From the IMG/VR virus record IMGVR_UViG_3300028025_001045, positions 1-34,035 of that record: a DNA stretch of 34,035 nucleotides; one strand, 5' to 3'. Made by a program: the position numbers and the translations under genes. This stretch comes from a virus. The notes under the pieces were generated by a model that searched no databases, was not told the origin of the DNA, and saw nothing but the letters and a program-made list of their open reading frames with translations. Below are positions 3,305 through 17,338 of this stretch, one piece after another (the stretch's first letter is position 1; each line of letters starts with the position of its first letter).

Positions 3305-4336
3305 ATGACTAAAAATCAGTATGGTAACTACATAAGTGATGCCGAATTTATAGAGAAATGGCAAGCATATCCTAGCCCTACGGCATTAGCAGCTCATTTA
3401 AAAATTAATATTCGTGCTGTTATGAATCGTAGGCGGTCAATAGAGATTAGACACAACATAACACTAGAAACCGACCTTACTTACAAAAAAGAAAAAAGCC
3501 TAGAGTACATAGAAAAATCTAAGGCTGAAAGAACAAAACGCCAAGAATTGTTGCAAGAACGCCTAGATGCCACTACCCATAGCGTTAGACGGGGTATGGA
3601 GTTAGAAAAGGGTCGGGTTATTATCTTTTCAGATGCCCACTTTACAGAAGATACAACTACAGGGTTTAAAGCCTTAATCAAGTTTATTGAGCATTTCAAA
3701 CCCAAAGCCATTATCTGTAACGGAGATGCGTTTGACGGGGCTGTATTGAGCCGATTCCCAAAGATAAATTTTGACCGCCAACCTAGCGTGTTAGACGAAC
3801 TAAACTACTGTAAAACGCATTTAGATGCTATTGAAAAGGTTAGACCAGCAGGGTGTAGGCTAATATGGACTCTAGGTAATCATGATATGCGTTATGAGTC
3901 GGCTTTAGTAGCTCGTGCCCCTGAGTTTTCGGGGGTCGATGGATTTAACCTAAAGTACCATTTCCCCCATTGGGAAACCTGTTGGAGCTTTTGGGTTAAT
4001 GAGGATACTGTAATTAAACATAGGCATAAAGGCGGTAGGTACGCAGGCTATAACAATGTGCAAGCTAGTTTTAGTAATATCTTTACAGGGCATACCCATG
4101 TATTGACTCTTAGCCCTATATCAACCTTTGACCAAAAAACCTACTGGGGTGTGCAAACAGGTACTTTAGCCGACATCAATGCGGATAGCTTTAGCTATAC
4201 AGAAGATAACGCAAAAGATTGGCGACAAGGGTTTGTCATGGCTTCGTGGGAAAGAGGTCGGTTGTTAATGCCTGAAATGATTCAAGTTTGTGGGGAAAAC
4301 GAGGTAGAGTTTCGTGGTGAGATATTAGAAGTATGA
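3305..4336 (+). CDS. Calcineurin-like metallophosphoesterase with N-terminal HTH-like region
   Basis: 343 residues from the ATG at 3305, chosen over an upstream start at 3275 because AGGGT lies 7 bases before it. The metal-binding motifs of the family are all present in order: SDAH near residue 110, GDAFDG near 140, GNHD near 191 and GHTH near 262. The first 60 residues (a W-x-x-YPSPTALAAHLKI pattern) look like a helix-turn-helix. Phage relatives are usually called DNA repair exonuclease or phosphatase, but the substrate is unknown. It is translationally coupled by an ATGA overlap to the SprT-like gene, and the pair lies on the strand opposite its surroundings. Confidence 0.88.
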   Translation: MTKNQYGNYISDAEFIEKWQAYPSPTALAAHLKINIRAVMNRRRSIEIRHNITLETDLTYKKEKSLEYIEKSKAERTKRQELLQERLDATTHSVRRGMELEKGRVIIFSDAHFTEDTTTGFKALIKFIEHFKPKAIICNGDAFDGAVLSRFPKINFDRQPSVLDELNYCKTHLDAIEKVRPAGCRLIWTLGNHDMRYESALVARAPEFSGVDGFNLKYHFPHWETCWSFWVNEDTVIKHRHKGGRYAGYNNVQASFSNIFTGHTHVLTLSPISTFDQKTYWGVQTGTLADINADSFSYTEDNAKDWRQGFVMASWERGRLLMPEMIQVCGENEVEFRGEILEV

Positions 4337-6072: not shown

Positions 6073-6553
6073 TATTGGTGGGCACTAATTTTGGCAAATC
6101 TTTTAACCATAAACAAGTTCTTTTTTGCATTGGATGACCATATTCGTAAGGCTGAATTGTTTGCGAATATTGTGGCAAACCATATACCTTTGAAGGTATG
6201 GGATTTTCAATAGCTATCTTGGGTATGTTTGCGTTGTAAAGAGCCATAAAAAACTCTTTTGCAGCCAAACCTTTTATTAATCTTTCTTGGTTCAAAATAC
6301 CTTTTGGATATAAAAACCTAGCACCAGCATTAGATAAATAGGTGCAAGGTGGGTGGGCAATCATTAAATCCCAGCCATTATCAAGAATGTCTAGCACCGA
6401 ACCTTCGTAATGATTACCTTTGGTTTCAGTAGGCAATATGTCACAAGACCAAGCATCGTGGCCCAGTTGTGCAAAAGCATCTCTAACACGCCCCGAATAT
6501 TCACACGCAATTAGCACTTTCAATCTATTTCCATCCCCATTCGCATCATACAT
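5912..6553 (-). CDS. Minimal DNA cytosine methyltransferase-like protein
   Basis: 213 residues. ACEYSGRVRDAF at 16-27 is the AdoMet-binding motif I region, HPPC at 67-70 the PPC catalytic motif and ENP at 116-118 the motif VI-like signature, as in C5-cytosine methyltransferases. It is much shorter than typical enzymes (about 300-400 residues), with little room for a target recognition domain. It could methylate phage DNA against restriction, but target and activity are unknown. The ATG at 6553 overlaps the replication gene; a TTG at 6523 forming a TTGA overlap is an alternative start. Confidence 0.75.
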   Translation of the reverse strand: MYDANGDGNRLKVLIACEYSGRVRDAFAQLGHDAWSCDILPTETKGNHYEGSVLDILDNGWDLMIAHPPCTYLSNAGARFLYPKGILNQERLIKGLAAKEFFMALYNANIPKIAIENPIPSKVYGLPQYSQTIQPYEYGHPMQKRTCLWLKDLPKLVPTNIVEERQSTKVAGNWFNKGGKDRQKERARTFEGIATAMAEQWGASIPMCSTAVM

Positions 6554-6894
6554 TTCTTCTTTAAAGTATCGTAGCTATCGTACCCGTTACCCAGTATTCC
6601 TAGTTCACGAGCTTTGTTCTCAATACCTTGTTGGCTAAACATCCAAGACCTATCCACCTTTTCTTTGGCGGGGGTCATGTCTAAAACATCTTCCCATCGT
6701 GCAGCGTTTATCCACGATGCGGGGTACGGGATGTAGTCTATTTCGGTGCGTTTAAGTTGCCAATGTCTAAGGTGTTTAGGCAAGGCTTCTAAGGCTTCAC
6801 GCTTTTCAAGGTCAGTCAATCGTTTCCAAGCAATTTCAGCTTTTTTCTTTGCGACCTTTTTGGGCCAATTCATCCAAAACTTTTCAAAATCCAC
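6520..6894 (-). CDS. Replisome organizer / helicase loader-like protein
   Basis: 124 residues. It reads FEKFWMNWPKKVAKKKAEIAWKRL, then ALEALPKHLRHW and YIPYPASWINAARWED. This combination is the conserved C-terminal region of many phage replication initiation or helicase-loading proteins. Here it stands alone without an N-terminal winged-helix domain. The start is GTG at 6894, preceded by a G-run ribosome site (AGGGGG) as in the plus-strand early genes, which groups it with early expression. No polymerase or helicase gene is nearby, so host replication proteins are probably recruited. Confidence 0.8.
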   Translation of the reverse strand: MDFEKFWMNWPKKVAKKKAEIAWKRLTDLEKREALEALPKHLRHWQLKRTEIDYIPYPASWINAARWEDVLDMTPAKEKVDRSWMFSQQGIENKARELGILGNGYDSYDTLKKKCMMRMGMEID

Positions 6895-6902
6895 ACATCC
6901 CC

Positions 6903-7049
6903 CTATTTTGTTGCAAGTACATAAAGTCCAATATTACTAAAAGCATAACCGCTATATACAACTGCCATAGCTGTATTACCTTTAAAGCCTTGTTCTATAC
7001 CTATATAGGCATAAATAAGCCCCGTCACAATAATTAGCCAAGAACTCAA
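6903..7049 (-). CDS. Small membrane protein, 48 aa, TTG start
   Basis: This 48-residue protein begins with TTG at 7049 forming a TTGA overlap with the preceding gene's stop. It has one or two hydrophobic segments (SWLIIVTGLIYAYIGI and AVVYSGYAFSNIGLYVLA). The motif GLIYAYIGIEQGFKGN is one I recognise as recurring in very small membrane proteins of related phages, so the frame is likely real. It is too short for usual ORF limits. The role is unknown. Confidence 0.7.
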   Translation of the reverse strand: MSSWLIIVTGLIYAYIGIEQGFKGNTAMAVVYSGYAFSNIGLYVLATK

Positions 7050-8488: not shown

Positions 8489-8659
8489 TTATTGTTGTGT
8501 GCTAATTTTTGATAATTGTATTGTTGTTTCTTCTTCAAGTTGTTTTACAAGGGTTGTAATTAACTTTGCAAATAAAAGGGCATTACCTTCGCCCTCAATA
8601 TCCAAATGGGCTACAAGCCCATCTACAGTTACTTTAATGGTTGCGACTGTTGTTGTCAT
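8489..8659 (-). CDS. Small hypothetical protein, 56 aa
   Basis: MTTTVATIKVTVDGLVAHL, then a helical acidic part ending in KISTQQ. It starts inside the stop of the repressor gene (ATGA overlap) with AAGGA five bases upstream, so it is translationally coupled to the repressor. No membrane segment. The function is unknown; its position immediately after a repressor suggests a regulatory partner, but this is only context. Confidence 0.7.
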   Translation of the reverse strand: MTTTVATIKVTVDGLVAHLDIEGEGNALLFAKLITTLVKQLEEETTIQLSKISTQQ

Positions 8660-8907
8660 AGTTTTTCCTTGTTAAGCTCAGGCCAAATTAAATGAAATGA
8701 ATCAGGAAATAAGTCTTTACGGCTTACCAATCCTTTGGATTCTTGCTCTAACAAAGCCCCCAAATAGACCATTTTATCGGCTGGAATACCTGAGTTTTTC
8801 CACATAGACACCGCAGGTACGCTAATTTTGCAGATTTTGGCTATTTTGGTAGGCCCACCCAGTAACTCGATAATTTGGCTATCGGTAAACACTTTTTTCT
8901 TTCGCAT
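8656..8907 (-). CDS. Cro/YdaS-like helix-turn-helix repressor
   Basis: 83 residues. The stretch IIELLGGPTKIAKICKISVPAVSMWKNSGIPADKM is a typical helix-turn-helix of the Cro/YdaS type, in which the recognition helix is the SVPAVSMWK part. It is divergent from the early operon, as in lambda-like control regions. An operator-like repeat overlaps its start, and its candidate promoter places the transcript start on the ATG itself. It probably represses its own gene and the rightward early promoters. Confidence 0.85.
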   Translation of the reverse strand: MRKKKVFTDSQIIELLGGPTKIAKICKISVPAVSMWKNSGIPADKMVYLGALLEQESKGLVSRKDLFPDSFHLIWPELNKEKL

Positions 8908-9014: not shown

Positions 9015-9227
9015 ATGGATGATTTACAGGAATTACATAACGAACAGTTGCAAGACCAAGAACGCCTTGAGATAGCTTTAGATAAGGCAGAGGATGGTGA
9101 TATGTTGACATTGGCAGAAATTGACCTAATCAGGTTTCATTGTGGCTTACCCAATAAGCGTAGGATTAGCCCCATTTTGGGTACGATTTTTGACGATTTT
9201 TCTAATATTTTTGGGGGGAAACAATGA
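9015..9227 (+). CDS. First early gene, hypothetical acidic protein, 70 aa
   Basis: The ATG at 9015 has GGAG six bases upstream and is preferred to earlier in-frame starts at 8976 (TTG) and 9009. The product is helical and acidic at the start (MDDLQELHNEQLQDQERLE), with a C-terminal GLPNKRRISPILG and hydrophobic/aromatic end. No family recognised. First gene after P1 and overlapping the SSB-like gene by four bases, so it is probably part of early control or replication. Confidence 0.65.
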   Translation: MDDLQELHNEQLQDQERLEIALDKAEDGDMLTLAEIDLIRFHCGLPNKRRISPILGTIFDDFSNIFGGKQ

Positions 9228-9847
9228 TTGTGACAGGCACAACTACAGAAAAGAAAGAGTTTAAGGTAGCCCCAGTAGGGTCGCACCTAGCTCGTTTATA
9301 CCGAATTATTGACTTAGGTACACAGAAGTCCGAGTACATGGGTCAAGTCAAGATGCTACGCAAAGTGAAGTTCTTTTGGGAGCTTCATGGCGATGACTTA
9401 AAGATTGAGGGCAAACCTCTTATCCAAACACGCAACTACACGCTGTCGCTAGGCGATAAGGCTTCGTTACGGAAGGACTTGGAATCTTGGCGTGGCAAAT
9501 CATTTACCGATGATGAGTTGCGTGGCTTTGACTTACGCAATTTGTTAGATAAATGGTGCATGGTTACTGTTCAGCATAGAACCGCTAATAACGGCAATAC
9601 CTACGCTGATGCGGTGGCTATTACTCCAGTTCCCGCAATCGTACAGAAAGCGGGTGTACCACAGGGCGTAAACCCTTGCGTCTTGTTTGACTTGCAGAAG
9701 TTTGACCAAGAAGTATTTGACAGCTTATCGCAAGGTCTAAAAGACCAAATCATGCTGTCAGCCGAATACCGCAACACTTTTAATAAACCTGATGTAAATA
9801 AGCAGTTGCAAGACGCAGCAATTATTGATGACGATGTTCCATTTTAG
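9224..9847 (+). CDS. Phage single-stranded DNA-binding protein-like
   Basis: 207 residues. The core (YRIIDLGTQKSEYMGQVK, then RNYTLSLGDKASLRKDLESW and DDELRGFDLRN) is a pattern I recognise from phage proteins annotated as single-stranded DNA-binding. The acidic tip DDDVPF matches the partner-docking tail of bacterial SSB. It would coat ssDNA and recruit replication or recombination proteins. The ribosome site is an unusual G6 run (9213-9218) followed by AAAC, fully complementary to part of the RNA at 10948-10958. Confidence 0.8.
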   Translation: MIVTGTTTEKKEFKVAPVGSHLARLYRIIDLGTQKSEYMGQVKMLRKVKFFWELHGDDLKIEGKPLIQTRNYTLSLGDKASLRKDLESWRGKSFTDDELRGFDLRNLLDKWCMVTVQHRTANNGNTYADAVAITPVPAIVQKAGVPQGVNPCVLFDLQKFDQEVFDSLSQGLKDQIMLSAEYRNTFNKPDVNKQLQDAAIIDDDVPF

Positions 9848-9870: not shown

Positions 9871-10068
9871 ATGAACCACATGATTAAAGACTTTATTGAC
9901 CAAAAATATACAGTCAAGACCTTTCAAGAACGGGGCTACGATGAAGAAGTACCCATCATCGGATTTGCTCAAGATGACTTGGAAACTGTCATTAAGACTG
10001 TGGTTCAGGCTTGTGCCGACAGGGTTAAAAACTCAGACGATAGAATGGCTGTGCTACAGTTAATGTAA
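9871..10068 (+). CDS. Small hypothetical protein, 65 aa
   Basis: ATG at 9871 with AGGAG ten bases upstream. The product is mixed alpha/beta by eye, with an acidic centre (YDEEVPIIGFAQDDLETV) and a single cysteine. It lies between the SSB-like and exonuclease genes in the early operon, so an accessory role in recombination is possible. No family recognised. Confidence 0.65.
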   Translation: MNHMIKDFIDQKYTVKTFQERGYDEEVPIIGFAQDDLETVIKTVVQACADRVKNSDDRMAVLQLM

Positions 10069-10086
10069 TGTTTAACAGGGGGAATT

Positions 10087-10830
10087 ATGTTAGTGAAAGA
10101 GAATACAAGTGAGAGCGGTCATTGGTACTTACCCGATGGCAGTCCAGCCTATCGCATCGTTGGCAAGAACGGGAAAGAAAGAAACTCAACTGTCAAAGAC
10201 GCAAGAGAACATGGCTTATTGCCCTCAGTTACCACAATTATTGGTTGTGCGTCAAAACCCGCATTGGATGTATGGAAACAACAACAAGCCATACTCGCTG
10301 CACTTACATTACCTCGCTTAGAGGGTGAATCTGAGGAAGATTGGCTAAGTCGGGTCGTTGCTGACAGCAAGGAAACCGCCAAGCAAGCTGCGGAACGGGG
10401 AACGCAGATACATGGGGTCATAGAAGCCTTCTACGAGGGTATTTATATACCTGAGCTACCACCCTATGTCCGAGCCGTAGAAAACGCCATAAACGAGCAT
10501 TTTGGCTCACAGCTATGGATTTCTGAGAAGTCCTTTGCTTATGGTGGTTTTGGCGGTAAATGCGACCTAGTTGCCAAGTCAGGCTTTGTGGTTGACTTCA
10601 AAACGACTGAGAAAGACCTAGACAAGCTCGATTACTTCTTTGACCACCAAATGCAGTTGTCAGCCTACCGACAAGGGTTTGAGATGCCCAAAGCTCGGTG
10701 TGCGATTGTTTATGTCAACGCCCTACAAAATAAAGCTAAACTAGTCGAGATACCTGAAGATGACCTGAGAATTGGGTGGGAATGTTTTACCCATTTATTA
10801 GCGTTTTATAGGGCAAAAAACAAACTATAA
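10087..10830 (+). CDS. RecB/Cas4-like PD-(D/E)XK exonuclease
   Basis: 247 residues. The nuclease core has H at about residue 108 (GTQIHGVIE), then GGKCDLVA near 156-163, VDFKTT near 168-174 and Q-x-x-x-Y (QMQLSAYRQ), matching the order E/H, D, E/D-x-K, QxxxY of RecB/Cas4-type exonucleases. With the SSB-like gene before it, this suggests a phage recombination module, although no annealase or RecT is visible. Its ribosome site is CAGGGGGA (10076-10083). The last codons overlap a TATAAT box. Confidence 0.85.
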   Translation: MLVKENTSESGHWYLPDGSPAYRIVGKNGKERNSTVKDAREHGLLPSVTTIIGCASKPALDVWKQQQAILAALTLPRLEGESEEDWLSRVVADSKETAKQAAERGTQIHGVIEAFYEGIYIPELPPYVRAVENAINEHFGSQLWISEKSFAYGGFGGKCDLVAKSGFVVDFKTTEKDLDKLDYFFDHQMQLSAYRQGFEMPKARCAIVYVNALQNKAKLVEIPEDDLRIGWECFTHLLAFYRAKNKL

Positions 10831-10831
10831 T
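10826..10831 (+). promoter_or_regulatory. Consensus -10 box before candidate RNA
   Basis: TATAAT, identical to consensus, overlaps the stop codon of the exonuclease gene. Seven bases on, the predicted start at 10838 is exactly the first base of an 8-bp stem. The -35 region is weak (GTTTTA at the right distance), so promoter strength is uncertain. Confidence 0.4.
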
Positions 10832-10837
10832 GATTAC

Positions 10838-10987
10838 GGGGTGGCGGCAATCCCCCTGCCACAATCTCCTTCACACAGAGGGCCACCCCACCTTTATAGG
10901 GCGGTTAAGCAAGCGTTAGAGGATGCTTGGATAAAGGGTTTTCTTGCTTTCCCCCCAATTTAGCCAAATCTACGCCCTGTTTTTTTA
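10838..10987 (+). ncRNA. Candidate structured RNA with C-rich anti-ribosome-site segments
   Basis: About 150 bases without a coding frame. GGGGTGGC (10838-10845) pairs with GCCACCCC (10882-10889), enclosing GGCA/TGCC (10846-10860). ATAGGGCG (10896-10903) pairs, with one wobble, with CGCCCTGT (10973-10980), enclosing CAAGC/GCTTG (10910-10929), and a run of seven T follows, as in an intrinsic terminator. C-rich segments TCCCCCTG (10851-10858) and TTTCCCCCCAA (10948-10958) are exact complements of the exonuclease and SSB ribosome sites. No known RNA class recognised; trans or cis action on early mRNAs is inferred. Confidence 0.55.
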
Positions 10988-11037: not shown

Positions 11038-11068
11038 TTAATCGTTGTTTAACTAAGGGGGAAATAAA

Positions 11069-11299
11069 TTGCGAACATACGATGAATTAAAAGCAGAAAT
11101 TAAGTTGCGTAAAGAATTAGGTTTACCGCGAATTGAACTAACTTCTGAAGAAAGAGCTAGAGCTTTTGGTGATGCAGATTGGCCTAATCGTGACAAAAAT
11201 GCAAGAATTAATGTAATGTGCAAACGCTACCAAGATGGTTTGCCTTTGTCTAAAAGCGATATTAAAGAAGTAAAAAGATTTTTAAGGGGGAATGTATGA
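11069..11299 (+). CDS. Small early protein, 76 aa, TTG start
   Basis: TTG start at 11069 with AAGGGGG seven bases upstream, a convincing site despite the rare start. The product is highly charged (YDELKAEIKLRKELG, then FGDADWPNRDKNARINVMCKRY) and looks cytoplasmic. The end overlaps the next small gene by four bases. No family recognised. Its position directly after P2 suggests early expression. Confidence 0.65.
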   Translation: MRTYDELKAEIKLRKELGLPRIELTSEERARAFGDADWPNRDKNARINVMCKRYQDGLPLSKSDIKEVKRFLRGNV

Positions 11300-11388
11300 A
11301 AGACTTTTTATTAGGTATGGTTGCAGGTGTGTTGGCATTTGGCATACCTGCTATTGTGTATGTGTGGAGAACTGGGGGAATATCATGA
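11296..11388 (+). CDS. Tiny membrane protein, 30 aa
   Basis: Starts by ATGA overlap with the previous gene and ends by ATGA overlap with the lipoprotein gene; AAGGGGG precedes the ATG. The sequence MKDFLLGMVAGVLAFGIPAIV is one transmembrane segment, followed by a short hydrophilic tail. The tight overlaps and G-run ribosome site make it likely real. A role in membrane or superinfection functions is only a guess. Confidence 0.6.
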   Translation: MKDFLLGMVAGVLAFGIPAIVYVWRTGGIS

Positions 11389-11636
11389 AATACGCAATCG
11401 CACTATCAACCGCATTATTAGGGGCTTGTTCATCGTTTGAGCCACCCAACGCTACACTAGAAACAGATAAGACTGTTTTTCACATGACTCGTAGTCAGGT
11501 TATCTTGGCTATTAATGAATGTGAGTCAGCTAACACAAGACCAGTAGTCATTGAGGCTAGGCGTAAGATTAACGGGGTAACGACTACTGTACCCGTTGAA
11601 GTAACTTGCCATCCACGCTATAAAATCTTTTACTAG
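11385..11636 (+). CDS. Small lipoprotein, 83 aa
   Basis: ATG at 11385 with GGGGGAATATC upstream is preferred over an earlier frame start at 11292. The N-terminus MKYAIALSTALLGACSS is a lipoprotein signal peptide with a lipobox ending at Cys15, so the mature protein would be anchored in the membrane. The remaining sequence has two more cysteines (ECES and VTCH). It might be an exclusion protein or o-spanin-like, but no i-spanin partner is adjacent. Confidence in the lipoprotein call is good; function is unknown. Confidence 0.75.
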   Translation: MKYAIALSTALLGACSSFEPPNATLETDKTVFHMTRSQVILAINECESANTRPVVIEARRKINGVTTTVPVEVTCHPRYKIFY

Positions 11637-11644
11637 GGGGTAAT

Positions 11645-11848
11645 ATGATTGGTACTGTAACGATTGGCGATACGCCTGTTGATGTATATGGCACAGAACT
11701 GCCTTCTGAACCTGCTGTTGGCATTATGGGCAATTATGTTGAGATTGAGGACTTAGAAGTAGGCGGCATTAGCATCTATGAAATGGTCGCTAACAACCCA
11801 ATCTTTGAGCAAATCCAAGAAGCAATCAACGATATGGTGAACTCATGA
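11645..11848 (+). CDS. Small acidic protein, 67 aa
   Basis: TAGGGGG precedes the ATG at 11645. Acidic and probably beta-rich at the start (MIGTVTIGDTPVDVYG), with a helical end ending in INDMVNS. Cytoplasmic by appearance. Overlaps the start of the next tiny gene by four bases. No family recognised. Confidence 0.65.
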   Translation: MIGTVTIGDTPVDVYGTELPSEPAVGIMGNYVEIEDLEVGGISIYEMVANNPIFEQIQEAINDMVNS

Positions 11849-11931
11849 ACCCATTTGTAGCTACAATTCTGTTCGTTTTATTAGCAGTAGCGTGTACAAC
11901 TCTAGGTTACATTTTAGGGGGGTATTTATGA
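11845..11931 (+). CDS. Tiny membrane protein, 28 aa
   Basis: MNPFVATILFVLLAVACTTL is a single hydrophobic segment. It starts at an ATGA overlap with the gene before it and ends at an ATGA overlap with the gene after it, with GGTGA upstream. This coupling on both sides makes it a probable real gene in spite of its length. Function unknown; similar tiny membrane proteins are common in early regions of phages. Confidence 0.55.
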   Translation: MNPFVATILFVLLAVACTTLGYILGGYL

Positions 11932-12131
11932 ACATTCCATACAACAACGGCAAAGTCAGCATTGGTAAGTATTATGTGCCACCTAAGTATGTTGAGAAAG
12001 ACACCGATATGCTAGAGCTTCAGTCTTATTTAATCTATGACCCAGCCCGTCTTAATAGGGCGTATTGGACTGAAAAAGGTCTGTTGCTACTAGGACTCTT
12101 TATTGTCTTGGTTATATTCCTCAAGAGCTAG
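11928..12131 (+). CDS. Small membrane-tail protein, 67 aa
   Basis: Start at 11928 has TTAGGGGGG upstream, better than the frame's earlier start at 11892. The product begins MNIPYNNGKVSIGKYYVPPKY, a signature I recall from small proteins of related phages, and ends with a hydrophobic helix (GLLLLGLFIVLVIFLKS). Probably membrane-anchored by its C-terminus. It overlaps the convergent endolysin gene by 42 bases. Function unknown. Confidence 0.7.
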   Translation: MNIPYNNGKVSIGKYYVPPKYVEKDTDMLELQSYLIYDPARLNRAYWTEKGLLLLGLFIVLVIFLKS

Positions 12132-14279: not shown

Positions 14280-16610
14280 CTATCGTGCGTTAGCGTATTT
14301 AAAGGGTGATTCGGCAAATGCCATGTAAATTAAAGTGTTACTACTGCCGTTTATAGCTGGGTCAGTTGCTCGAATTTTAAATCCATTAGACAGAATATCA
14401 CTAGAGTAAGTTGTGCTATTTGTTTCTGCTCCTGATGAGTTTGGAAACAAATTAAGCGTTGTTTGGTTATAAGTATCTCTAGATGTGTCTATAATAATCC
14501 AGCCATTACCTGATGCACTTGCGTTTTTAACCATTAAAAACCTAGGTCTAAACCCTGTGTACACAAAAGTTCCATCCGTAGAACCATTACCTGTGTATGA
14601 GCCAAATGCAGAGTATCCAGCAATTGGGGTAAAGCAATATGCAACCATGTTATCGCCATTGGTTGCGCCCGAACCAGCATAAGTAAATACAGTTGATGTA
14701 GGTGCAGTGCTATTCCAAAATGCAGGGCTGTATGCCGCATCTGTAGTGTTTAAGTTTAATCTATTACCCCACCCTATGCTATTACACCCTACATCCCAGT
14801 TATATGCGGTTGTTCTTGATTTAAGAATAATAAATTGCGGGGCAACGCCAAGTCCATGACCAATTGTTGAAGTTGTTGAACTATGTACCCAAGTAACAAC
14901 ACTAAACCCGCTTGTTGTATTAGCACTTACTGTAGATGTAATAGAACCTGCTGTGTTGGTTACTCCTGTGCCATTAGCTTTCCATTGCCAAGCAACATAA
15001 GTGTTTGTGCTTTGATTTGCTCCAGCATCGTTACCAACAGAAAATCCATTGCTATTAAATGCTGTTAATGAGCCAGCAGTTGTACTTTCTGCGGTAGTTA
15101 AATTTGAAGAAAGTCTTTGTAAAACGCCACGAGTAACATCAAATAGAGCATGATTAAAAGTTGTGTCTCTACCCTTATACCAAACTAAGTCAGGTTGCAT
15201 AGAGCCTGAATTAGTAATAGTTTGAGTTGAGCCATTACCTGTATACAGAGTAGCATCCATATACTTATTCGCTGTTGTAGATGCAGTAGCACCAATCGTA
15301 GGAGTAGGTAAGTTAAATGTGTTTAGTGCTACAAAGCCTGTTGGTGGGGTGTAAGCGAATGGTCTTTGACCGAAGTTCCAATCTGAAGTAGCTCCATAAG
15401 GTCTGCCACAGAAGGTAAATGTTCCTACTAAGCCTGTAAATGCTGTTCCTTGGCTTACATTATTTTTATAAAAAGTAACAGTTCCAGCATCCATGTCAAG
15501 CGCAATTCCAATAACATCTGTGCTAGTAAATGTTGCGCCATAAGATGAACTAGAACCATTGTTATACTTGGTTGCGTTAGCATGGTATCCGTAACTATTA
15601 GCAGTTGCTCCGGGGTAATCAGCGGCATCTGTGACCAAAACAACACCAGGAGCATCTGGTCCACCTGTTACTTCGGCATACCATTTTCCTGATGAAGCTC
15701 CGATAGTTCCTTGGATTCCTTCATTAATGCTTGCGCCAACTGTTAAGGTTAAGTTAGCATTTGAAACAGTTACCCCACTTGTTTTTTTAAGAGGATTCCA
15801 TACACAATAATTAGCCGCAGTAGCACTTGTCAGCGTAGGCACATCGGTCATGCTGTCATAAGTAGAGCCAGCAGTAATGCTGATATTGTTTGTAGTCCAA
15901 TAGTTTGCGTTGCCTGAGAAGTCTTTTCCTAGTCCCACATTCGATGATGTAGTCAGAGCAGAGTTATCGGTAAATGGTAAATAGAATCCATTAGTGCCGT
16001 AAGTTCCTGTGTATTTCTTAGGAATCCATACACCTGTGGTTGAGGATGTTTCACCGAATGAGGATGGGGTTAGGGTTTGTCCATCAATTGCATTAATTTC
16101 AGCCATGTAGCCATCAAAATAACCGCCACTTATATAAGTACCAATACCTCTATTGTTACCATCATTGTCAAACCAAGATACTGTGGCATTTAAACCAAGA
16201 TTGTTTGTAGTGCCAAATGCAGTTATTTGTTGACCATTAAGGTATAAACTCTGTCTATTAGATGAAGTAGCTTGAGTTGTATCCCAACTAGCAACTAAAT
16301 GATACCAAGCCGATGGGTCACGAAATACTTGAGTTGTAATAAAAGTATTTGAACCGCCATTTTGCCAAACCAATTGATTGGAAGAATTAAAATACAAGTA
16401 AAAGATTGTTCCGCTACTTTTTCCAACAAGATATTGGTTAGCTTGACCTATGCCTTTAAACCAAATTGATATTGTTCCTATGGTTGTGCTGGTTGCCGCA
16501 ACACTTGGAGTTCTATTTAAATAAGCAGATGCACTAGACCGAAAGCGTAGGGAGTTGGTTAGGTTATAACCACTTGGCCCGTTAGCAGTAAAGACTACAG
16601 GTAGGGTCAT
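14280..16610 (-). CDS. Tail fibre/receptor-binding protein with LamG and SPRY-like domains
   Basis: 776 residues. Residues about 10-210 contain a LamG/concanavalin-type fold pattern (TISIWFKGIGQANQYLVGKS, YHLVASWDTT, YLNGQQI). Around 290-400 a SPRY-like part (WYAEVTGG ... GIALDMDAGTVTFYKNN) follows, then repeats of the type YTGNGSTQTI and YTGNGSTDGTFVYTGF found in aquatic phage fibres. It probably binds surface glycans. It starts with an ATGA overlap with the preceding fibre gene. Confidence 0.75.
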   Translation of the reverse strand: MTLPVVFTANGPSGYNLTNSLRFRSSASAYLNRTPSVAATSTTIGTISIWFKGIGQANQYLVGKSSGTIFYLYFNSSNQLVWQNGGSNTFITTQVFRDPSAWYHLVASWDTTQATSSNRQSLYLNGQQITAFGTTNNLGLNATVSWFDNDGNNRGIGTYISGGYFDGYMAEINAIDGQTLTPSSFGETSSTTGVWIPKKYTGTYGTNGFYLPFTDNSALTTSSNVGLGKDFSGNANYWTTNNISITAGSTYDSMTDVPTLTSATAANYCVWNPLKKTSGVTVSNANLTLTVGASINEGIQGTIGASSGKWYAEVTGGPDAPGVVLVTDAADYPGATANSYGYHANATKYNNGSSSSYGATFTSTDVIGIALDMDAGTVTFYKNNVSQGTAFTGLVGTFTFCGRPYGATSDWNFGQRPFAYTPPTGFVALNTFNLPTPTIGATASTTANKYMDATLYTGNGSTQTITNSGSMQPDLVWYKGRDTTFNHALFDVTRGVLQRLSSNLTTAESTTAGSLTAFNSNGFSVGNDAGANQSTNTYVAWQWKANGTGVTNTAGSITSTVSANTTSGFSVVTWVHSSTTSTIGHGLGVAPQFIILKSRTTAYNWDVGCNSIGWGNRLNLNTTDAAYSPAFWNSTAPTSTVFTYAGSGATNGDNMVAYCFTPIAGYSAFGSYTGNGSTDGTFVYTGFRPRFLMVKNASASGNGWIIIDTSRDTYNQTTLNLFPNSSGAETNSTTYSSDILSNGFKIRATDPAINGSSNTLIYMAFAESPFKYANAR

Positions 16611-17338
16611 GCAACCCCCAAACTTCTACCTTGCTCGTATAGGTTTGTACCATCAGAGCGGAATACAAAATAGTCTTTAGCACTAGCACCTGTTGATAAG
16701 GTAGGTGCAGTTCCACCCGCCCACTTAAATACTGCGTTCCAAGTTAGAGTATTTGACCCTGCGTTTTGGATAACTGCTAGACCATAATAAGCCCCGTTTA
16801 CAAGTCCTGTAGGTGCGCCCATTGTTCTGTTATTCGATACAAAGGTAAAGGTAGCGACTTGGGCAGTATTAGCCGCCCATGCAATCGTAGCACCATCGGT
16901 TAAAGCTACATTACCAAAGTATTGTTGAGCAGTAAAGTTTGTAGCGGTTGCGGGGGCTACATACTCTGTACCTGCGGTGGCTACAGCAACCACGCCTGAA
17001 GTACCTTTTAAGACCCCTGTTAAGGATGTAGCAAGGGTAGTCGTACCTGTAACTGTTAAGGTTGTAAACGAACCTGTACCGCCACTAACTAAAGCGTCAG
17101 CATAAGCCTTAGTAACTGCATCGGTTGATAAAGTAGGGGTAGCTAAGTTAACAATTTTGTTACTATTTAAATTTAAATTACCCGACATTGATGTTTGACC
17201 ATCGGCAGCTACCGAATCAGTCAAAGCAGAAGCTATATCACTAAGTGTGTTATTAGCCCATGTACTTGCAATGGTTGTGCCTGTAACTACGGGATTACCC
17301 GCAGGTAGGGAATATGTGCCTGACCCGTTTCTACTCAT
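16607..17338 (-). CDS. Tail fibre protein
   Basis: 243 residues. The beginning (MSRNGSGTYSLPAGNPVVTGTTI, then STWANNTLSDIASALTDSV, DGQTSMSGNLNLNSNKIVNLATP) is a pattern I recall from many phage and prophage fibre N-terminal parts, which attach the fibre to the baseplate. The C-terminal part is Thr/Gly/Ala-rich. Probably works together with the 776-residue protein as distal part. Confidence 0.75.
   Translation of the reverse strand: MSRNGSGTYSLPAGNPVVTGTTIASTWANNTLSDIASALTDSVAADGQTSMSGNLNLNSNKIVNLATPTLSTDAVTKAYADALVSGGTGSFTTLTVTGTTTLATSLTGVLKGTSGVVAVATAGTEYVAPATATNFTAQQYFGNVALTDGATIAWAANTAQVATFTFVSNNRTMGAPTGLVNGAYYGLAVIQNAGSNTLTWNAVFKWAGGTAPTLSTGASAKDYFVFRSDGTNLYEQGRSLGVA

Follow-up and report, generated by a model that had tools for sequence, protein, structure and literature searches.

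A structured RNA of two modules, A and C', was found at positions 10838-10987, downstream of the exonuclease gene, in the window (the whole stretch of 34,035 nucleotides that was analysed, an IMG/VR virus record of 34 kb carrying genes for portal, head and lysis functions). We consider it likely, with a probability of about 0.7, that this is a small RNA whose loop would pair with the G-run Shine-Dalgarno (SD) sequences of a set of phage genes, lowering their translation. In the sequences of the window and its relatives, the RNA has a conserved fold, its stems covary, its loop covaries with the SD sequences, and the matching sites lie at SD spacing from the start codons.

Seventy-two loci encoding exonuclease relatives were fetched, and two further profile searches gave relatives at about 50-63% identity; the relatives readable per scan were the best 80 of 480-odd exonuclease relatives. 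A nucleotide search among annotated phages returned zero matches, and an Rfam cmscan of the window against all families gave no match at the gathering threshold.

Architecture and conservation of the RNA

The exonuclease gene (10087-10830, plus strand) is followed by a non-coding stretch before the next gene. A preliminary description of this DNA had called the 150 bases non-coding, which was upheld, and its letters and coordinates were all correct on re-check. The fold of the stretch is slightly better than that of shuffles (-50 vs -42.2 kcal/mol, z -2.0). Module A (10838-10889, plus strand, as are the elements below) consists of an 8-bp stem, P1 (10838-10845/10882-10889), a 4-bp hairpin stem, P2 (10846-10849/10857-10860), a 7-nt loop, and a conserved YTTCAC segment whose TTCAC occupies 10870-10874. 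The loop ATCCCCC (10850-10856; complement GGGGGAT) is the proposed pairing seed and covaries with the ribosome-binding sites (RBSs) across clades. Covariation of the stems in relatives, which had been suggested as a check, was found, with compensatory changes in both P1 and P2. Module A is predicted to fold in every variant with the C-run unpaired (window loop, p about 1.0). The pseudoknotted 3' domain, module C' (10897-10979), has the closing stem AGGGCG/CGCCCT and is followed by a run of seven T (10980-10986), a probable terminator tail. Most relatives with module C have a T-rich tract in this position.

The preliminary description had also proposed a TATAAT element with a start at 10838. 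The hexamer, a putative -10 element at 10826-10831 (plus strand), is exact and lies 6 nt before the first stem base; both it and the spacing are kept across clade I, and TATAAT recurs in clades III-IV. No -35 box was recognisable (0 promoter-like hits). As the hexamer shares bases with the stop codon of the exonuclease gene, the start, from which the RNA would read GGGGTGGC, is only putative.

Module A follows the exonuclease gene directly in nearly all loci with a long enough contig. One locus, L063, has an insertion between the two; at about 3480-4030 of this contig an unrelated ORF (HNH-like by eye) was apparently inserted. The most distant of the fetched loci, L072, is without module A. 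In clade I the loop has five C in 66/66 readable loci, and in clade II the P2 stem varies freely by compensation around a constant loop. Close relatives swap the modules downstream, carrying A alone, A+B, A+C or A+B+C. Of the named relatives, MW202674 carries, 3' of its exonuclease, a C-rich element of divergent sequence (GGGGTG..CACCCC), and in MW202545 and PQ492157 the next gene comes directly after the exonuclease. Nearly all clades (for example the L457, L401, L459 and L402 groups) keep the YTTCAC segment within the 5' hairpin or next to it, and clades with no C-loop do so too; its clade II version is ATCAC or variants. GTGAA is in some excess near G-run genes, and this excess was probably inflated by conserved exonuclease start codons (GTGAAAG); therefore, a role of YTTCAC as a second seed is not claimed.

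Module C has the pattern GTTAAGC-N7-AGAGGATG...GCTTTC...CCAAATCT and is also present in phages without module A. Across 33 distinct sequences it forms five helices, one of them a pseudoknot, with 94.5% paired cells and two-sided change in 22/28 pairs. Its covariation score was 0.638; shuffles scored 0.214 and slid controls 0.07-0.11. The C' domain of the window is a divergent member of the family (model R1, 54 bits, E 2e-15). Module C is a well-supported structured RNA family that occurs in many phages and has no Rfam match at threshold. A pattern search of 84,980 bacterial species genomes gave 13 hits, all apparently coding or chance, and 274 genomes of one bacterial class gave a single weak hit.

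In layout, module C looks like a remote relative of the Rhizobiales sRNA Atu_At1 (RF02496), which appears to share an outer stem, an AAGC..-type pseudoknot with the inner hairpin loop, a U-run before and UUUC after; the likeness is to module C only, and Atu_At1 has no A-type C-loop module. A 7-bp pseudoknot can be read in Atu_At1 sequences (for example AAGCGGA/TCCGCTT in L496), and the pseudoknot covaries in module C. However, module C reached 17.8 bits (E 0.83, L120) with the RF02496 covariance model, below its threshold of 60 bits, and in the reciprocal test R1 matched 3/10 Atu_At1 loci, weakly and in part. RF02496 was not among the Rfam matches in the window. With a score so far short of the threshold and a weak reciprocal test, we do not claim membership.

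Several further elements were observed in the relatives. Module B (GGGC-RAAA-GCGGATGC..GCAGC-GAGTA-GCCCACC; L008, L042, L052, L383, L392 and others) is a compact hairpin RNA that has a variable insert and whose internal loop is GAAA/GAGUA (sarcin-ricin-like); it occurs in many apparently unrelated phages, often just 5' of a start codon, and the loci scanned gave no Rfam match to it at threshold. In the viral contigs L108, L120, L123, L140, L146, L163, L208 and L211, module C lies directly 3' of a short PqqA-like gene (MWTTPAATEMRFGFEVTMYVMNK). In L129, L139 and L169 it is preceded by another 5' module, GGGGCGGG..GATTCC..GTGGGATTCGGT..CCCGCCCCACC or similar. The RF02932 Betaproteobacteria-1 RNA lies roughly 1.6-2.3 kb upstream of the exonuclease in some relatives (L042:160-285, L060:3220-3344 and L066:947-1071 (minus strand)) and was not found in the window.

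Complementarity between the loop and the ribosome sites

Of the 59 predicted genes of the window, 9 have GGGGG at SD distance, compared with about 0.3 expected (P about 6e-11), in agreement with the earlier remark that early genes other than the SSB-like and exonuclease genes have G-run sites. On the plus strand, the SSB-like gene (9224-9847) has the G6 SD TTGGGGGGAAA (9211-9221), and the exonuclease gene has the G5 SD CAGGGGGA (10076-10083), confirmed as the exact complement of 10851-10858. G5 SDs also precede ORFs 11069-11299 (TTG start; 11057-11061), 11385-11636 (11374-11378) and 11645-11848 (11636-11640) and a small ORF starting near 11296 (11286-11290), and a G6 SD precedes ORF 11928-12131 (11917-11922). 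On the minus strand, G5 SDs belong to the replication-initiation protein gene 6520-6894 (6899-6903) and the tail fibre/virion protein gene 14280-16610 (16615-16619). Nearly all clade I relatives have TTGGGGG(G)AAA as the SSB site, and nearly all keep the G5 of the exonuclease site while its flanks drift. The gene between the two, 9871-10068, keeps an AGGAG site in most relatives, which indicates that the code is gene-specific. G-runs mostly lie 4-7 nt from the ATG and AGGAG 5-8 nt; the C-run orientation is almost never seen at the SD position, and only 4/125 and 1/99 genes with the loop-complement motif have another SD as well.

A second C-segment, TTTCCCCCCAA (10948-10958, plus strand), lies within module C' and had been described as an exact 11-base complement of the SSB site. 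The match is exact as sequence, but it is absent from most relatives: L111 has an interrupted C-run (CCCCACC), the common C module lacks it, and relatives keep the G-run SSB site whether or not they have the segment. This match was thus rejected as a pairing segment and is probably best read as chance.

The loop and the ribosome sites differ together between lineages. Clade I combines the loop WTCCCCC with GGGGGA sites, whereas clade II, which is large and distant, has the same 5' architecture with the loop TTTCCCCTT and AAGGGGAAA sites, its exonuclease sites being AAGGGGAA. Lineages without the C-loop have ordinary sites. GGGGG was found in 595/2367 genes of loci bearing module A, compared with 17/1531 in loci with C and no A and 15/766 in those with B and no A. 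A de novo 7-mer search was performed upstream of genes, with the first ATG taken as the start and without SD scoring. The top 7-mer was AGGGGGA in clade I (56 seen vs 1.8 expected) and AAGGGGA in clade II (85 seen vs 1.8 expected), each the reverse complement of its own clade's loop; ordinary SDs were on top in clades III-V. GGGGG was present in 124/734 clade I and 14/518 clade II genes (Fisher 2e-17), and AAGGGGA in 1/734 and 85/518 (Fisher 2e-33), relatedness not being removed in either test.

A maximum-likelihood tree of 80 exonucleases, with bootstrap not fully settled, was used to follow these pairs. C4TT loops occurred with AAGGGGAA exonuclease sites in 37/37 cases and C5 loops with GGGGG in 15/16, and a G-run was found at this site in 0/22 lineages without a C-loop. 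L413 (C5 loop, GGGGG site) nests beside the C4TT clade with support of 98/99, indicating that the matched pair changed more than once. The concerted changes on the tree number only about three or four, many loci being near-copies. Two loci fit loosely: L420 has a C6 loop with AAGGGGAA, and L111 combines a C4 loop with G4 as well as G5 sites. The base adjoining the G-run does not follow the loop variant within clade I. The preliminary description had held that C-segments varying independently of the ribosome sites would count against pairing, and had warned that the pairing could be chance in a phage using G-runs. Both remarks apply to the second segment, which varies while the SSB site does not; the 5' loop, by contrast, changes together with the RBSs.

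Pairing energies to the mRNAs, also suggested as a check, were predicted at -13 to -16.5 kcal/mol for the duplexes of the A-loop with the RBSs, stronger than the roughly -7 to -10 kcal/mol for the 16S anti-SD with the same type of site. The loop gave -3.9 kcal/mol on the AGGAG site of the neighbour gene. Energy does not fully separate the clade I and II loops, as the clade II loop on the clade I exonuclease site reaches -14.7 kcal/mol.

Alternative explanations

The RNA could act in cis, as a 3' UTR or intercistronic part of the exonuclease operon transcript, its loop pairing with G-run SDs carried by that mRNA, upstream at SSB and exonuclease and downstream at the small genes, and coupling their expression. 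Its position inside the gene cluster to be controlled, the absence of a -35 box, and relatives such as L014 that have module A without the T-rich terminator module are consistent with this. However, the leftward genes 6520-6894 and 14280-16610 bear G-run SDs and cannot share the transcript, and clade I keeps TATAAT and its 6-nt spacing to the stem. We therefore regard action in cis as unlikely.

A DNA operator would be a quite different explanation, with AGGGGGA or AAGGGGAAA serving as binding sites of a phage repressor at the starts of many genes and, as a single inverted copy, in module A, much like mycobacteriophage stoperators. On double-stranded DNA complementarity is identity, and a Cro/CI-like gene lies at 8656-8907. 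The motif, however, stands at exact SD distance, in sense orientation and in place of the SD, and this spacing and orientation disfavour an operator; moreover, the module A copy is in the loop of a covarying hairpin, which a DNA site would not need. We consider an operator very unlikely.

C-rich sRNA loops are able to reach many G-rich SDs, so the loop might instead pair with G-rich host mRNAs while the phage SDs titrate it. Such a sponge is highly improbable, as the motif in the genes of the phage itself follows the loop, down to the bases flanking the G-run in clade II, and a sponge would not need SD spacing. Mere coincidence between G-rich SDs used for their own reasons and an accidental C-run, to which the low complexity of both and the small number of lineages would lend themselves, is hardly credible: two clades that differ in motif each have the complement of their loop as the top unbiased motif, and on the tree the two traits change in concert.

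Proposed role and relation to known RNAs

For the small RNA that we favour, we infer that it is transcribed, pairs in the cell, and represses its targets at a particular time. An RNA of about 150 nt would either start at a promoter of its own at 10838 or arise by processing of the exonuclease operon transcript. The hairpin of its 5' module would expose the C-run loop, next to the pseudoknotted, terminator-bearing 3' module. The loop may then pair with the G-run SDs of the SSB-like, exonuclease and replication initiation genes, several small early genes and the tail fibre gene; a covered SD would block initiation and lower translation of the target. Most likely, early functions would be turned down, either with the accumulation of the RNA or when an incoming relative encounters a resident copy. 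The identity of the window genes carrying the code makes early-function shutoff or self-immunity the natural reading. More tentatively, one loop may set the SDs of a whole early regulon as a genome-wide RBS code, loop and sites shifting together; the result would be RNA-based self-silencing or immunity groups in which phages of a different code are spared.

The preliminary description knew of no RNA of this kind. Indeed, we found no described family or regulon to match it, and no description of a phage RNA with a loop coevolving with the SDs of a whole gene set in the limited literature searched; c4 RNA and the UCCC-motif sRNAs, however, also pair at or near RBSs. The c4 RNA of P1 and P7 is a small structured phage RNA that pairs with phage mRNA around the RBS; its complementary segments are thought to be in loops, its target is the antirepressor (ant) mRNA, and it is essential for P1/P7 heteroimmunity (PMC12197685). 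Module A is similar in that its loop is complementary to the RBS region of phage mRNAs. Unlike c4, it has a single loop matching the SDs of many genes, which include the SSB-like, exonuclease, replication initiation and tail fibre genes and small ORFs but not the antirepressor, and the window, searched against all Rfam families, had no match to the known c4 family at the gathering threshold. In the UCCC-motif sRNAs of low-GC Gram-positive bacteria (LhrC, RsaE, RNAIII, SprD and FsrA), translation initiation is blocked by exposed C-rich segments that bind to G-rich SDs (PMC4132741). The RNA described here is likewise predicted to expose a UCCC-type loop complementary to G-rich SDs, but it is carried by a phage, and from lineage to lineage its loop changes together with the SDs. 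In the T4 RegB/RegA shutoff, a phage factor at the SD region of many early mRNAs ends their translation (PMC3014915); the purpose would be similar, although those factors are proteins, not RNA.

The phage RNAs of a similar sort that we found described act on one target mRNA, whereas in the present case many unrelated genes appear to have SDs that coevolved with the same loop, one code being replaced by another in nature. If true, this would offer ready-made loop/target pairs for synthetic translation control. The matching changes of the loop and its binding sequences between lineages suggest an RNA switch that turns the early gene set down, and uncultured phages would then have a global, RNA-encoded switch for timing or immunity.
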